Shown here piece after piece: positions 46,844-57,414 of a DNA stretch of 64,000 nt (the first letter of the stretch is position 1; the number at the start of each line of letters is the position of its first letter). Below the pieces are notes generated by a model. That model was not told the DNA's origin. It saw only the letters and a list, made by a program, of their open reading frames with translations, and did not search any database. Position numbers and translations under genes: made by a program. Location of the stretch: contig NZ_FOCX01000005.1 in assembly GCF_900110215.1 (NCBI RefSeq), positions 62,001 through 126,000 of the forward strand. The letters are read 5' to 3'. This DNA comes from Halorientalis persicus. Its GTDB lineage: Archaea > Halobacteriota > Halobacteria > Halobacteriales > Haloarculaceae.

Positions 46844-47034
46844 TGCGCAATACGCACGCACACTGAGCAGTCGATTCGCCAATGTCAACGTGAAATCAAT
46901 ATTACCGAGTGCTGCATAGACGCTCTGTATCCATCACCGCAGAATACTCATATCGGATCTCCGAAAGTCCGTTTACACCTTCGATCAGCGGTGGCCCACT
47001 CACGGGTTGTCCGGATCAGCTACTGGACACGCCA

Positions 47035-47044
47035 GATTTATTCG
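47035..47044 (+). promoter_or_regulatory. TATA box of hicB
   Basis: GATTTATTCG is centred about 27 bases before the ATG at 47067. It fixes the hicB start and marks the promoter of the toxin-antitoxin pair. Confidence 0.55.
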
Positions 47045-47066
47045 ACCACCAGACCTCTTCCTATGT

Positions 47067-47348
47067 ATGAGCACCGACACCGACGACGCCGGCGACGACG
47101 AGCCGGGGCCGATCAACATCTCGCTATCGCTGGGCGAGAGCGGCGAGGTGTGGGTCGCCCGCGACGAGGACACGGGTGTTACCTCGCAGGGGCAGACTCG
47201 ACGGGCTGCACTCGAAAACCTCGACGATGCCGTCGCCGGCTATCACGGTGCCGGAGAGTCACCGAGTGACGACGACCTCCGAGAGATGGGGATCGACCCC
47301 GAGCAGAACACCGCTGGATCGCTGGACGAGTCGGATATCTTCGAGTAA
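47067..47348 (+). CDS. hicB: HicB-like antitoxin
   Basis: 93 residues. The small HicB fold is recognised from INISLSLGESGEVWVARDEDTGVTSQGQTRRAALENLDDAVAGY (residues 15-58), a partial RNase-H-like fold that binds and blocks HicA. No separate DNA-binding domain is obvious in the C-terminus. The toxin gene follows after 4 bases. Order hicB-hicA is the reverse of the common hicA-hicB arrangement. Confidence 0.87.
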   Translation: MSTDTDDAGDDEPGPINISLSLGESGEVWVARDEDTGVTSQGQTRRAALENLDDAVAGYHGAGESPSDDDLREMGIDPEQNTAGSLDESDIFE

Positions 47349-47352
47349 CCGA

Positions 47353-47607
47353 ATGGCTCGGGGACCGTTTTCCGGCAGGGAGGTCGTGAAGGTGATGGTC
47401 AACAGTGGAATCTACGAATGGGACCGGACGAACGGCGACCACGCGATTCTCCGCTGGGAACCGCCAGCGGATCACGATTCGGACGCGCGGACGGTTCCAG
47501 TGCCGATGCACGACGAGGTCGATACGGGGACGTTGCGGAGCATCGCCGAGCAGGCCGGCGCGAAAGATTTCGACGAATTCTGTGCGTGGATCGACCGAAA
47601 TAGCTAG
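47353..47607 (+). CDS. hicA: HicA-like mRNA interferase toxin
   Basis: 84 residues with a dsRBD-like fold. The family start FSGREVVKVMVNSGI leads to NGDHAILRWEPP, where the His is the expected catalytic residue, and RTVPVPMHDEVDTGTLRSI. HicA cleaves mRNA unless bound by HicB. Small HicA proteins are usually 60-90 residues, so it is full length. It lies at the right end of the repeat-flanked cassette. Confidence 0.87.
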   Translation: MARGPFSGREVVKVMVNSGIYEWDRTNGDHAILRWEPPADHDSDARTVPVPMHDEVDTGTLRSIAEQAGAKDFDEFCAWIDRNS

Positions 47608-50862: not shown

Positions 50863-52146
50863 TCACGACCCACGTCGCACCAGACAGACCGTACCAAAAA
50901 GCCCCAGAACTGTCAGTAGCACCCCGAATCCGGGACCAGAACCTGAACTCGTGACAGTCGCTCCGGTCCGGGGGTCACCTGTCGTCTGTGGGGTACCTTC
51001 GGTCTCTACAGCTACCGGTGGTCTGTCTCGATCAGTCGTCTCCGTACTCGACGGGGGTGACGCGGTGCGTGACTGGCTGTCGGCTCGTTCCGTCGTCGGA
51101 GCCACGGTGGCGATCGGTGACACCGTTTCACCGGTCTCTGGCGTCGCCGTGTCATCGGTGACCCCGGTCTCGGGAGCGTTCGTTTTCGAGTCTGTCTCGG
51201 TGACCGTGACGACCACGGTGTCGGTATCAGTGTTGAAGCTTCCGTCGGTCACCGACAGTTCGACTGTGTACTCGCCGGGGCCGTCGAAGGTCCACGAGAC
51301 GGTCTCACCAGTCCTGTAGCCGAATTCCCCGGCCAGAGACCACTGGTAGTGATCGATCTCCTCGTCGTCCGAGGAGCCACTGCCGTCGAGGGTAACGGGT
51401 TCACCGACGGTTACGGTTCTGTTCGGGCCGGCGTCGGCCGTCGGGGGTGTGGTGTCGGCGTCTCGGCCGCCCCCACTCGGGCGAGTCGCGGGGTCCTCGA
51501 GATCGACCGCGTGGCTCCCACTTGGCAGTCCGGTGACCGCGACGGCACCGCTCGCGTCGACGGTGGCGGTGGTCAGTGTGGCTCCCGAATCGGTGTCGAT
51601 GGCTTCGACAGTCGCTCCCTCGGGGAGCCCCGTTTCCTGTATCGTCAGGCCGACCGTGCTCCCGGCCTCGTACGTGAGGTCGACGCCCTCGTTCGTGGCG
51701 TCGAAGTCCACGCTCGCGAAATCGAGCGCGGTCGAGTCGCGCTGGAGCACGACCGGCTGTTTGTCGGCGGGATCGACGGTGATGTCGGTGCTGGCGTCGA
51801 TAGCCGTGAGGTTCGTGTAGTCACCAGTGCGCTGGTCGACGGTGACTCCGGTGTCACTCGCTGCCGACAGCGTCAGGTCCACGAGATCCAGCGTCTCGCC
51901 GTCGTCGAACGGATTGTCGGCGACGTCCGCACCCGTCGTGTCGGTCACCGTCAGCCCGGAATCCGTCTCGTATACCACATCGCCGGTGATCACCGCGTCG
52001 TTGCCCGCCGCGGCCGCACTTCCGGTTGCGGATGCAGGCAGGACCGCGACCACCAGCAACAGTGTAACTGCCAGTGCGGCGAGTTTCGGCACGACGGACT
52101 CTGTTGGTCGCTGCGCTCGCCCGGTCGCCGTGTCGTTTTCAGTCAT
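50863..52146 (-). CDS. PKD-domain surface protein with PGF-CTERM anchor
   Basis: 427 residues. A signal peptide is at about residues 20-46 (LAALAVTLLLVVAVLPASATGSA). Beta-rich repeats fill the N half, followed by a PKD domain at about 240-330 (ADAGPNRTVTVGEPVTLDGSGSSDD; GPGEYTVELSVTD). A Thr/Ser-rich stalk leads to a C-terminal SGSGPGFGVLLTVLGLFG and basic tail, the archaeosortase A sorting signal, so it should be lipid-anchored and glycosylated on the cell surface. Its start overlaps the coiled-coil gene by 8 bases, which places it in the S74 fibre operon. Confidence 0.9.
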   Translation of the reverse strand: MTENDTATGRAQRPTESVVPKLAALAVTLLLVVAVLPASATGSAAAAGNDAVITGDVVYETDSGLTVTDTTGADVADNPFDDGETLDLVDLTLSAASDTGVTVDQRTGDYTNLTAIDASTDITVDPADKQPVVLQRDSTALDFASVDFDATNEGVDLTYEAGSTVGLTIQETGLPEGATVEAIDTDSGATLTTATVDASGAVAVTGLPSGSHAVDLEDPATRPSGGGRDADTTPPTADAGPNRTVTVGEPVTLDGSGSSDDEEIDHYQWSLAGEFGYRTGETVSWTFDGPGEYTVELSVTDGSFNTDTDTVVVTVTETDSKTNAPETGVTDDTATPETGETVSPIATVAPTTERADSQSRTASPPSSTETTDRDRPPVAVETEGTPQTTGDPRTGATVTSSGSGPGFGVLLTVLGLFGTVCLVRRGS

Positions 52147-52372
52147 CGGCCACTCCTTGCTGGTCTGCCCCATCAACGCCGTGCTGAGCCTCGATACGGT
52201 CGAGTCGCGATTCTAGCTCGGCGCTGCGCTCGCGTAGTCGGCCGTTCTCCCCGCGGCGCGGCTCGGTTTCTGCTTCGAGTTCCACACGGCGTTCGCGCCG
52301 TTTCTCGATGGCCTCTCGCTGTCGTTCGACCAGCGATTCGAGTCGGTCGAGTCTGTCGTCGATGTCACTCAT
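52139..52372 (-). CDS. Small coiled-coil protein
   Basis: 77 residues, nearly all charged heptads (MSDIDDRLDRLESLVERQRE and on). No membrane segment. Its first 40 bases are identical to the (out-of-frame) start of the S74 fibre gene, so its N-terminus is a copy of that coiled coil. It lies between the fibre and the PKD surface protein genes. It may pair with the fibre's cytoplasmic coil before export. ATG 52372. Confidence 0.78.
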   Translation of the reverse strand: MSDIDDRLDRLESLVERQREAIEKRRERRVELEAETEPRRGENGRLRERSAELESRLDRIEAQHGVDGADQQGVADD

Positions 52373-52458
52373 CGTGACCTCCCCCATTCAGATCCGAACG
52401 GGTCGTCCCGACGACCCCCTGTCTTTCCACGGTCGCTGAGTACTCCGCAGCCATCGGT

Positions 52459-53556
52459 TCACTCCTCCCTCGTGTTCAGTCGGCTTTCGAGTTCCTCGAC
52501 CCGGTCTCGAAGCCGTTCCTGTTCCTCGGCGAGTTCCTGAATAGCATCGACGGTGACGGGTATCACGCCTGTGTAGTTGACCCCATAATACCCATCCGAG
52601 TCCGCAGGTTCGTTGACGGCCTCGGGGATGCCGTCTTCGAGTTCCTGCGCGATGAATCCGAGTTTCGTCTCTGGATCGTCCCGGTCTTTGAGCTCGTAAC
52701 TGACCGGTCGAATACTCTGTAACCGATCGAGCCCTCCGTCGATCGCTCGTACGTTCTCTTTCAACCGTCCGTCGGATTCTTCATTCAGGCCGCCACTCTG
52801 GTAATAAATATTCTCCCAAGCGTTCATACTATCCAGGTCCGACGGGGAACCCAGCGCAGAACTGGTTCCGGTCGGAACGATGTCGCCCCCGGAGAAAATT
52901 CCGGATCCGACCTCAAGGTTGGTGTTTTCCAGCACCCACTGTTCTGTATTACTACCGAAGTCCGAGGTGTTGATCTGTTCAATATCGACAGCGCCACTCG
53001 CGATTTTACCGGATCCGACGGCACCACTCGCTATCGTCGCGGTTCCGACAGCACCGCTCGCCAACTCATCAGTATCGACAGCACTGCTCGCCAACTCATC
53101 AGTATCGACAGCACCGCTCGCGATCTCGCCAGAACCAACGGCATCACTCGCGAGTTGTCCCGTATCGATTCCCCCGTCCTCGACGGCCAACGTTTCTGCA
53201 TCGATTCCGATACCCGTTCCTCGAAGGTCGGTCAGGGCCGCGCCCCCGGTGAGACCACCGTTCACCTCCTCGGTGAACAACGCCCGAATCGGTCGGTTCT
53301 GCGTTCCGACCTGCCCCGTGGGATTCGATGCCGAGGCCGTACTTGCTCCCAGTCCCAGCAGCGCCAGCAGTCCGCCGGCCGTCAGCGCTGACCGACGGCT
53401 GACCGGCAGGTCCTCACGAGCCCCAGTCTCGTCGCCGGTCGCCAGTGCATCGAGACGGTCACGCTGGGCCTCGATGAGCTCACGTTGCTCTTCGATCGTC
53501 CGCTGCTGTTTTTTCGAGTTGCGATTCGAGTCGGTCGAGTCTGTCGTCGATGTCAC
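52459..53556 (-). CDS. Tat-exported fibre-like protein with peptidase S74 chaperone domain (apparent frameshift at start)
   Basis: 365 residues in the frame from GTG 53556. An N-terminal coiled coil (residues 10-45) is followed by a Tat signal (SRRSALTAGGLLALLGLG, about 53-76). Ten-residue repeats (GAVDTDELAS, SAVDTDELAS, GAVGSGKIAS) fill about residues 140-200, as in phage tail fibres. An S74 intramolecular chaperone domain runs from S261 to the end: SDGRLKENV, IRPVSYELK, LGFIAQELE. It should trimerise and then cleave itself before S261. The more natural start is ATG 53560 (MSDIDDRLDRLES), which an A6 tract puts out of frame. Confidence 0.85.
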   Translation of the reverse strand: MTSTTDSTDSNRNSKKQQRTIEEQRELIEAQRDRLDALATGDETGAREDLPVSRRSALTAGGLLALLGLGASTASASNPTGQVGTQNRPIRALFTEEVNGGLTGGAALTDLRGTGIGIDAETLAVEDGGIDTGQLASDAVGSGEIASGAVDTDELASSAVDTDELASGAVGTATIASGAVGSGKIASGAVDIEQINTSDFGSNTEQWVLENTNLEVGSGIFSGGDIVPTGTSSALGSPSDLDSMNAWENIYYQSGGLNEESDGRLKENVRAIDGGLDRLQSIRPVSYELKDRDDPETKLGFIAQELEDGIPEAVNEPADSDGYYGVNYTGVIPVTVDAIQELAEEQERLRDRVEELESRLNTREE

Positions 53557-53560
53557 TCAT

Positions 53561-53952: not shown

Positions 53953-55362
53953 CTACTCCCCGTCGAACAGTTCCGAAAGGAGATTGCGCTGGGCAGCCCT
54001 GAGTATCTCGTCGTAGGTCGGTCGGGCGATGTCGAGCGTCTCGGCGACCGCGGTCGCGTCGTTAGGTCGCGGTTTCTCGAAGTATCCCGAGCGAAAGGCG
54101 ACTTCGAGTACCTCCCGCTGGCGGTCCGTCAGCCTCCCGAGCGGCTCGCTGTCGTCGTCGGTGTCAGCCGCTGCTGTCGTGAAATCGGCGATCCCAACGT
54201 CGTCGAATCGCTGTGCGAGAGCATCGAGAACCGGATCGAAGGCCTCTCCGTCGGGAAATCGGACTACCACCGTCGAACTCGTCGACTCGATGTGTGCTTG
54301 CCTGATCGTCCCGCCGTGGCTCGTGACGACGTTGCAGGGTATCGGCTCCGTAACGACCGCCTGCACCCGCTCATCACCAGCGCGACGCACCTGTTCGATC
54401 CCGGTCGTTTCGCTGGCTGCCGACGCGAACGCCGACGGCTTCTCCGGCGACAGATAGCACAGCGCCTCGTCGTCCCCGTGTGGGACGAGGGCCGTCATCG
54501 TCACGGGGCCACCGACTTCGTCGACGGCACGCGATAGCGGCGACGCTGCCGAGTCGACCGTAACGGTGAACTGAACCCAGCGTTCGGCTGCCAGCGCTCG
54601 CCGACGCTCGTCGTCTCCGATCGCGTGCCCGAGGAGCTCTGCGCATTCCTCGACTAGCTCCCGAACCCGTTCACAGTTATCGACGGACGCGGTCGCCCGT
54701 GCGTAGAGTGTCCCACGAGTGATGCCGTCGTACGAGACCGGGACTGAAAGCACCTCGACTTCAGAACTGTCATCACACTGTGGCGACCCGCTCGAACGTG
54801 CGAACGTTTCTGCACTGTCTTCGGGTGGTCCCAGAGTGACTTTCGCGGACGCGACGGCGTCAATGGCGGCCAACTCCTCACAGACGGTGGTTGCAAACTC
54901 CGAAATCGAGGTCGGACTGGCCAGTGCGTCCTGCAACGCAGTACGGATGTCCCGCTCGTCTATCAGGTCACGTATCTTCCGTTTCCTGTCGGTGATGTCC
55001 CGGACAGCCAGCAAGATTCCCCCGATCGACGGATTATCGAGGTAGTTTCGACCCTGGGCTTCCACCCATCGATAACTCCCATCGCTCGCGCGAACGCGGT
55101 ACGTGACGTCGGTCTCGACGCCGGGGTTTTCGAGCTTCGTCTCGAAGTCGTCCCGGACCTGCTCCGTGTCGGCCTGATGAACGTACTCGAAAGCGTCCGT
55201 CCCGAGCAACTCGCCGGGAGTGTACCCCAGCACCCGCTCGACGACCGGTGAGACGTAGTCGATAGTCCCCGACGCAGTGACGACCACCACGTAATCCGGA
55301 GCACAGTCCAGAATCCGTCGACACCGCCTTTCTCTACTGGATCTATGTCGCGGCGAACGCAT
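53953..55362 (-). CDS. PAS-GAF Bat-type HTH-10 transcription regulator
   Basis: 469 residues. A PAS domain is at about 15-125 (ILDCAPDYVVVVTASGTIDYVS; GYTPGELLG; RWVEAQGRNYLDNP). A GAF-like region is about 140-250, the Bat-associated domain about 260-400, and the HTH-10 at 410-465 (LTDRQREVLEVAFRSGYFEKPR; ARPTYDEILRAAQRNLL). Proteins of this layout resemble the bacterio-opsin activator Bat and respond to redox or oxygen. It lies directly upstream of the fibre operon region on the same strand. The target is unknown. Confidence 0.92.
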   Translation of the reverse strand: MRSPRHRSSRERRCRRILDCAPDYVVVVTASGTIDYVSPVVERVLGYTPGELLGTDAFEYVHQADTEQVRDDFETKLENPGVETDVTYRVRASDGSYRWVEAQGRNYLDNPSIGGILLAVRDITDRKRKIRDLIDERDIRTALQDALASPTSISEFATTVCEELAAIDAVASAKVTLGPPEDSAETFARSSGSPQCDDSSEVEVLSVPVSYDGITRGTLYARATASVDNCERVRELVEECAELLGHAIGDDERRRALAAERWVQFTVTVDSAASPLSRAVDEVGGPVTMTALVPHGDDEALCYLSPEKPSAFASAASETTGIEQVRRAGDERVQAVVTEPIPCNVVTSHGGTIRQAHIESTSSTVVVRFPDGEAFDPVLDALAQRFDDVGIADFTTAAADTDDDSEPLGRLTDRQREVLEVAFRSGYFEKPRPNDATAVAETLDIARPTYDEILRAAQRNLLSELFDGE

Positions 55363-55647: not shown

Positions 55648-57414
55648 TCAGGTGGCCAGTCGACCGTCGACGCCGGTGATCTCGAACTGCGCACCGCCCG
55701 AGGACGCACGCTGTTCGGCCTCCGAGCCACCGCTCTCGGTGATCGTCACGTCCCAGCCGTGGGCGTCGACGATCTCCCGGACGATGGCCAGGCCGAGCCC
55801 GGTGCCGTCCTCGGCGTCGCTGTATCCGGGCTCGAAGACCTTCTCGCGCTCCCCCGGCGGGATGCCGGGGCCGTCGTCCTCGACGTAGAAGCCGTCGATA
55901 GCCGTCGAATCGGTCCCGTCGCCGTCGCTTCTCGACGCCGCTTCGAGCGGACCGACCGTGACAGTGGCCGTCTCGCCGCCGTGTTCCACCGAATTCCTGA
56001 AGAGGTTCTCGAAGACGTGGCGGAGGCGTTCCTCGTCGGCTTCGACGACCGCGTCGGCCGTGACAGAGAGCGTCGCGTCGGCCGTGTCGACGGTGGCCCA
56101 GCACCGCTCGGCGAGCGACGCGAGGTGAATCGGCTCCGTCTCGGTGACTGCCTCTCCCTCCCGGGCCAGCGTGAGCGTGTCTTCGATGATCTCCTCCATC
56201 CGCTCGTGGGCGTCTTCGATCTTGGGGAGATGGCTGTCGTCGTCACAGGTGTCGGCCAGCATATCGGTGTGTAACTCGGCGACGTTCAGCGGGTTCCGGA
56301 GGTCGTGGGAGACGATGCTGGCGAACCGATCGAGGCGCTCGTTCTCCCGTTCGAGTTGCTCGTACTGCTCTCGCTGGCGACGTTCCACGTCGAGGCGGTA
56401 CAGCGCATGGGCCACAGCGTCGCTCAGGTCTTCGAGCACCCTCTCTTCACGATCCGTGAACGCCTCTGGTCGGTCCGAGTAGACGTTGAGGACGCCGTAT
56501 CGAGTGGCCGCGAGGTGAATCGGGATGGCCGCACTCGATCGGAAGCCGTATTCCAGCGCCGGTTTCCGCCAGGGTTCGTACTCCGGATCGGTCCGGATGT
56601 ACTGGACCACCTGAATCTCTCCCGTCTCGACCGCGGTCGCCGTCGGTCCCTGCGCGAGGTCGTCGTCCGCCAACGAGATCTCGATCTCGTCGAGGTACGA
56701 CTCGCTGACGCCGGCCGCGGCGACGGGCCGGATCTCTTCGCCGTGATCGGTGCCGACCCACGCGAAGACGTACGGGTCCGAGGCCGCGAACTCGGTGCAG
56801 ATCGCGTCGAACAGTTCGTCGCGGCTCTCGGCCTCGACGACGCGCTGGTTGACACGCCGGATCGTGTCTACCACCTGCTCGCTGGTCCGGTGCTGTTCGA
56901 GCCATCGCTTGCGCTGCCCGTCGTAGTACCCGATCAGTAACCCGGCGGCGGCCCCACCCGACATCGAGTTGACGACCACGTGTGTCGCGTGGACGACGAT
57001 CGCCCCGTGCGCCCGTTCGTAGCCGACGAACAGCGCCGCCATCCCTCCCGTCACGACGACGCCGAACACGAGCCAGATCACCATCCGCGGCGCGTACTCG
57101 GCCGGAAGCCGGTCGACGTAGAGTAACCACCCCACGACCAGGATCGAGACCGAGAGACCGAACGGGAGCGCAACACCTGTCAGAATCCCGATCACAGGTT
57201 CACCACGCAGGTGCCAGACGTTGATCGAACCGAACACCAGCCCGGAGAAAAGAATCGCGAGCGACCAGACCGATCGCGGCGATCCGTCACCCCGGGTGGT
57301 CGATGGTACCGAAATAGTTCTCGGTACAAATGACCGGAGCGTGGTCAAAAAAGCAACCGATCCCTCGTCGCCGGTCGCCGGACCAGCGTCGAGGACGCGA
57401 TCGCAGGGACTCAC
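55648..57414 (-). CDS. Membrane histidine kinase with GAF domain
   Basis: 588 residues. Four N-terminal helices lie between residues 49 and 165. A GAF domain is about 175-350, the dimerisation helix has the phospho-His in FASIVSHDLRNPLNVAEL, and the HATPase domain has FENLFRNSVEHGG (N box), VEDDGPGIPPGEREKVFEPGY (G1) and GTGLGLAIVREIV (G2). It is an orphan kinase in this window; no response regulator is adjacent. The start is uncertain: the GTG at 57414 adds about 45 residues before the first helix, and an internal TTG start is possible. Confidence 0.9.
   Translation of the reverse strand: MSPCDRVLDAGPATGDEGSVAFLTTLRSFVPRTISVPSTTRGDGSPRSVWSLAILFSGLVFGSINVWHLRGEPVIGILTGVALPFGLSVSILVVGWLLYVDRLPAEYAPRMVIWLVFGVVVTGGMAALFVGYERAHGAIVVHATHVVVNSMSGGAAAGLLIGYYDGQRKRWLEQHRTSEQVVDTIRRVNQRVVEAESRDELFDAICTEFAASDPYVFAWVGTDHGEEIRPVAAAGVSESYLDEIEISLADDDLAQGPTATAVETGEIQVVQYIRTDPEYEPWRKPALEYGFRSSAAIPIHLAATRYGVLNVYSDRPEAFTDREERVLEDLSDAVAHALYRLDVERRQREQYEQLERENERLDRFASIVSHDLRNPLNVAELHTDMLADTCDDDSHLPKIEDAHERMEEIIEDTLTLAREGEAVTETEPIHLASLAERCWATVDTADATLSVTADAVVEADEERLRHVFENLFRNSVEHGGETATVTVGPLEAASRSDGDGTDSTAIDGFYVEDDGPGIPPGEREKVFEPGYSDAEDGTGLGLAIVREIVDAHGWDVTITESGGSEAEQRASSGGAQFEITGVDGRLAT

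Follow-up and report, generated by a model that had tools for sequence, protein, structure and literature searches.

An S74-tipped fibre gene beside a gene for an anchored P3-domain protein in Halorientalis persicus: a candidate attachment module of haloarchaeal cells and proviruses

Fibres ending in an S74 domain, such as endoNF, the L-shaped tail fibre of T5, gp37 of phage S16 and the intramolecular chaperone (ICA) of MyRF, share with the fibre described here the S74 profile, a Ser-Lys dyad with a spacing of +5, the fold and a C-terminal coiled coil. The catalytic dyads are S911/K916 in endoNF and S587/K592 in MyRF, both MyRF residues being required for cutting (PMC8326128). The present fibre differs from all of them in that it is encoded on an archaeal contig, begins with an N-terminal coiled coil and a Tat signal, and has an anchored partner. 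Trimeric autotransporter adhesins (YadA, UspA1) resemble its relatives in the UspA1 head repeats, the coiled coils and the logic of a surface fibre; unlike them, the fibre from H. persicus has no Pfam match to a C-terminal outer-membrane barrel and ends in S74 plus coiled coil, and the haloarchaeal fibre would use Tat export and a separate anchor protein. In other members of its family the end is BclA_C or C1q in place of S74, neither of which was found in this copy. Two further systems resemble the partner. PGF-CTERM surface proteins have in common with it a PGF-CTERM signal above cut-off, a PKD domain and an archaeosortase encoded in the genome, but not P3, a domain absent from Pfam and NCBIfam. 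The 904-aa spike-like protein of the lemon-shaped Haloferax virus LSV-48N (PMC12714723) has the stalk and membrane region common to P3-bearing proviral spikes, whereas the partner has P3 and no such stalk, and LSV-48N itself lacks both P3 and the fibre module. A search of open-licence papers retrieved none that describes such trimeric fibres in haloarchaea or the P3 domain. The S74/trimeric surface fibre is of a known kind, and what is new is an undescribed partner domain common to cells and proviruses.

The locus lies on the minus strand of the window, the whole 64-kb stretch of H. persicus DNA analysed, and its features are collected in Table 1. The three genes named in a preliminary description were confirmed far beyond chance: gene 1 (fibre), gene 2 (77 aa) and gene 3 (427 aa), with 86 bp between the first two and an overlap of 8 bp (ATGACTGA) between the last two. 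Elsewhere in the window, at 47007-47607 of the plus strand, two small overlapping ORFs resemble by eye a HicB/HicA toxin-antitoxin pair.

Table 1. Features of the locus and its surroundings, and positions of S74 fibres of a second haloarchaeal class
Feature	Position	Strand	Remark
Gene 1, fibre gene, 365-aa ORF	52459..53556	-	conserved start ATG 53560 is in another frame
A6 run, meeting point of the MSDIDDRLDRLESQLEK frame and the frame of the rest of gene 1	53509..53514	-	
Twin-arginine codons of Tat signal, aa 54-55	53392..53397	-	invariant in 28 fibres
Mature N-terminal module SNPTGQVGTQNRPIRALFTEEVNGG..., aa 77-113	53218..53328	-	proposed docking end
Shaft repeats, six of 10 residues, aa 131-190 (DTGQLASDAV ... 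GSGKIASGAV)	52987..53166	-	
Peptidase_S74/ICA domain, aa 261-314, dyad Ser261-Lys266	52615..52776	-	Pfam E 1.3e-13
C-terminal coiled-coil helix of S74 domain, aa 328-364	52465..52575	-	from model
Gene 2, 77-aa coiled coil	52139..52372	-	probable internally deleted second fibre gene
Gene 3, P3/PKD/PGF-CTERM surface protein, 427 aa	50863..52146	-	
P3 domain, aa 55-225, undescribed, all-beta	51472..51984	-	mostly pLDDT >90
PKD domain, aa 233-315	51202..51450	-	PKD_4 E 1.6e-13 (Pfam)
PGF-CTERM archaeosortase signal, aa 400-425	50872..50949	-	TIGR04126 26.3 bits, cut-off 24.5
PAS-BAT-HTH_10 regulator, upstream of fibre gene	53953..55362	-	possible link only
4TM-GAF histidine kinase	55648..57414	-	possible link only
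Second-class S74 fibre, L058	9072-10442		
Second-class S74 fibre, L065	6180-7421		
Second-class S74 fibre, L064	8703-9902		
Second-class S74 fibre, L070	7707-9329		

The elements ascribed to gene 1 from its letters were borne out. The twin arginine of the Tat signal is followed by a hydrophobic stretch, SRRSALTAGGLLALLGLG, and signal cleavage would fall after ASA76. All six copies of the ten-residue repeat are in place, and the S74 domain, the single S74 match in the genome, scores 51.4 bits against a Pfam cut-off of 22. Its Ser261 and Lys266 have the same spacing as the endoNF and MyRF dyads, and the dyad is kept in 13 fibres of the set. The AlphaFold model of a single chain is poor overall, with a mean pLDDT of 53, which would not be surprising if the chain belongs to an intertwined trimer; the model does not resolve the shaft. 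Residues 270-362 of the model superimpose on the MyRF ICA (7dc3) with Z 8.5 and an rmsd of 2.0 over 93 aligned residues, and the S74 part gives Z 8.0 with endoNF (3gw6), unrelated entries reaching Z 4 at most. Haloarchaea also have a second class of S74 fibres (Table 1), marked by the N-terminal motif NHxYNVPxxGxxNWHxPLNxNF; these lack a Tat signal and have no P3 gene beside them.

The nearest solved chain by sequence is the distal subunit of a phage long tail fibre (6f45, E 3.4e-5), and many PHROG tail-fibre families match gene 1, phrog_892 doing so at aa 124-195 with E 9e-13. These PHROG matches, together with the occurrence of S74 and C1q tips on fibres of extracellular contractile injection systems too (PMC12923769), would suit a fibre belonging to a phage tail or such an injection system. 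That origin is very improbable here, because the genome has no gene for the sheath protein PF04984, controls being positive. Moreover, no tail genes adjoin the locus, and the invariant Tat signal is not what is expected of tail fibres assembled in the cytoplasm.

In gene 1 the conserved start and the remainder are in different frames. ATG 53560, preceded eight bases upstream by GGAGG, opens MSDIDDRLDRLESQLEK, which fits the N-terminal coiled-coil consensus of the fibre family, but its frame soon reaches a stop; everything further on is read in the frame of GTG 53556. One frame gives way to the other at a run of six A, and runs of at least six A or T are rare in the window (7 in 64 kb). A one-base indel (by sequencing error, mutation or slippage) is possible, as is a true start at GTG 53556; gene 1 may thus be out of frame over its first 16 codons or so, and the break may disable this copy of the fibre. 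A programmed -1 frameshift was considered and rejected, since a shift of +1 would be needed to join the frames and none of the canonical slippery heptamers fits; slippage by +1 is possible.

Gene 3 had been presented as a PKD-domain protein with an archaeosortase signal, and both elements were recovered; an archaeosortase is encoded in the genome. What its relatives have in common, however, is not PKD, which is optional; it is a domain of some 170 aa at the N-terminus, which the preliminary description had missed and which we call P3. By sequence P3 has no clear solved relative, and the gene 3 model compared with the PDB and with viral folds gave nothing at E 0.001 or below; the best-aligned folds listed were beta-sandwich modules of GH98, whose Z of 7.7 is within background. 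In the phage collection the gene 3 protein (P0003) had no match, and plasmids gave PKD matches only.

Gene 2 is indeed present as a coiled coil of 77 residues, but its standing as a conserved third component did not hold. It opens with the same 39 nt as gene 1, and from aa 21 to aa 77 its product matches the very C-terminal end of fibres encoded in genome G120 (phmmer domain i-E 1.4e-10; shared ending QQGVADD), where two fibre genes stand in tandem. From the 39-nt identity and the fibre-type C-terminus, gene 2 is probably a deletion relic, that is, a second fibre gene without its middle; coiled-coil similarity alone is weak evidence. The overlap of a fibre stop with the start of the next gene through ATGACTGA is also found in G120 and G070. 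Between fibre and P3 some loci carry a small gene (L054 14974-15246, L056 6872-7168, L154 12033-12332; genomes G120, G070 and G132) for a protein of 90-99 aa with the motif DPITLTxEIDPxxFDEPR and a PDQPGG end; two of these proteins tested against Pfam had no match, and the family is absent from the window. The tandem fibre genes of G120 (L054) have a HicB-like gene and an apparent HEPN/MNT pair between them. In G366 (L150 8260-9141) a fibre N-module is fused to a PGF-CTERM-like C-terminal anchor, close to a stop codon in frame; this fusion probably arose by deletion.

Relatives of the gene 1 protein (P0001) share an N-terminal module made of the coiled coil, the Tat signal and the motif P.GQ.GT..RPL..LYT..L.GG (alignment A1), and most of them adjoin a gene like gene 3. 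A profile of P3 built from alignment A2 was run over 392 genomes of the order and found matches in 33. Taking places with at least 90 bits as strong P3 and at least 75 bits as a fibre N-module, a fibre lies within 5 kb of 21 of the 23 strong P3 places, the exceptions being G360 and a contig end. Eight of the 23, previously seen beside fibres, had served to build A2; among the 15 others 13 are paired. By genome, the overlap of fibre N-module and P3 is 17/18 (p ~1e-26, kinship of genomes ignored). The window locus, where fibre N-module and P3 stand within 5 kb, is one such pair. Distance trees of the two modules show no clear agreement: r was 0.19 (p 0.02-0.04) while one pair was mis-assigned, and rho was 0.08 (p 0.21) once that pair had been corrected. 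Alignments A1 and A2 were too diverse for pattern scans. A scan of genome contigs with alignment A7 gave a sole match, Halorhabdus salina (100% identity to G070), and a scan of viral contigs with P0001 gave no relatives. The recurrent pair, the S74 match with its fold and the archaeosortase in the genome support the earlier proposal that a fibre on the cell surface is linked to an anchored protein there. S74 is the tip of the window copy; across the family it is one of several tips, found in 12 of 28 fibres, others having BclA_C or C1q and three carrying UspA1 adhesin repeats. Interchangeable tips of trimer type on a constant base point to a trimeric fibre whose N-terminus would meet a constant partner.

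P3 also occurs in a viral context. Weaker matches (44-95 bits) head proteins of 560-750 aa that lie in virus-like clusters and have membrane helices at their C-terminus; one of these proteins matches the 904-aa protein of LSV-48N (E 2e-38), in a similar surrounding gene order. The most abundant protein in LSV-48N supernatants, which may be the 904-aa ORF, is reported to contain a beta-sandwich (residues 365-549) and to resemble weakly, at its C-terminus, a tail protein of SSV19 (PMC12714723). When the conserved spike stalk (alignment A3) was searched in the same 392 genomes, a fibre module was found within 5 kb of 7 of the 13 LSV-48N-type spikes bearing P3, and of one more at 9 kb, vs 1 of the 19 lacking it, that one being weak (Fisher p=0.003); the loci are mutually related, so that the p-values are optimistic. 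P3 and fibre thus tend to travel together in the proviral setting too, with weak proviral fibre matches (24-42 bits) and with about five P3-bearing proviral loci, as well as G360, having no adjacent fibre. Viral contigs scanned with the L162 and LSV-48N spikes contained no relatives. Five equal-scoring copies of a P3-bearing proviral spike occur in G064 (contigs C4, L201, and C1, L146), four of them on a 76-kb contig and three of these four about 14.1 kb apart; they are either proviruses in tandem or an artefact of assembly.

The presence of P3 and fibre N-modules in LSV-48N-related proviruses, the apparent deletion in gene 2 and the frame break in gene 1 could also mean that a viral attachment module, a proviral fibre with its spike head, is in decay at this locus and no longer works in this strain. 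We regard this as rather unlikely. Gene 3 is intact and carries a cellular sorting signal, and about 20 similar chromosomal pairs have anchors of cellular type. As for a provirus remnant as a whole, it is made unlikely by the absence of the A3 stalk from the window genome (G000) and by ordinary neighbours, those examined including no viral genes. The recurrence of the pair across haloarchaea and in LSV-48N-related proviruses suggests a fibre-and-socket module for attachment that cells and viruses have in common.

The partner might, on the other hand, do more than anchor. In three genomes (G059, G060 and G062; Pfam on the G062 protein, the others by homology) P3 forms a single protein with a kinase of the 7TM-PAS-HisKA-HATPase type, kinases lie near several loci, and HTH_10 regulator genes stand just upstream of the fibre locus in the window and in two relatives (G070, G287). 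These fusions and upstream BAT/HTH_10 genes make contact sensing a live rival, in which the fibre would bind and P3 relay the event to the histidine kinase and the BAT/HTH_10 regulator. Still, haloarchaea have numerous kinases and HTH_10 genes, no regulator is found near most loci, and most P3 proteins possess a C-terminal anchor alone, with no signalling domain; we therefore judge a sensor unlikely.

The reading that we hold, with some reserve, to be the most probable is a two-part cell-surface attachment module, in which a Tat-exported trimeric fibre matured by S74 docks on a membrane-anchored P3 protein. In this model, the gene 1 fibre would trimerise through its coiled coils and the S74 domain, the latter acting as a folding clamp that the Ser261-Lys266 dyad would cut off once the trimer has formed, and the fibre would leave the cell through the Tat pathway, which takes folded cargo. 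Signal cleavage would expose the mature N-terminus (GQxGTxxRPLxxLYTxxLxGG), free to dock on the P3 domain of the gene 3 protein, itself presumably exported by Sec and held at the membrane through archaeosortase processing of its PGF-CTERM tail. Shaft and tip would then face away from the cell and attach to other cells or to a surface. More tentatively, P3 might serve Tat-exported trimeric fibres in general as their socket, present on lipid-anchored proteins of cells, on sensor kinases and on the spikes of lemon-shaped viruses, as part of one tip-swapping module exchanged between virus and host.

Should the two proteins act in this way, archaea would have their own counterpart of the trimeric adhesins that is exported by Tat and has exchangeable tips, among them a self-cutting phage chaperone. 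The P3 link would moreover offer a testable handle on host attachment by some lemon-shaped haloarchaeal viruses and on the traffic of attachment parts between cells and viruses.
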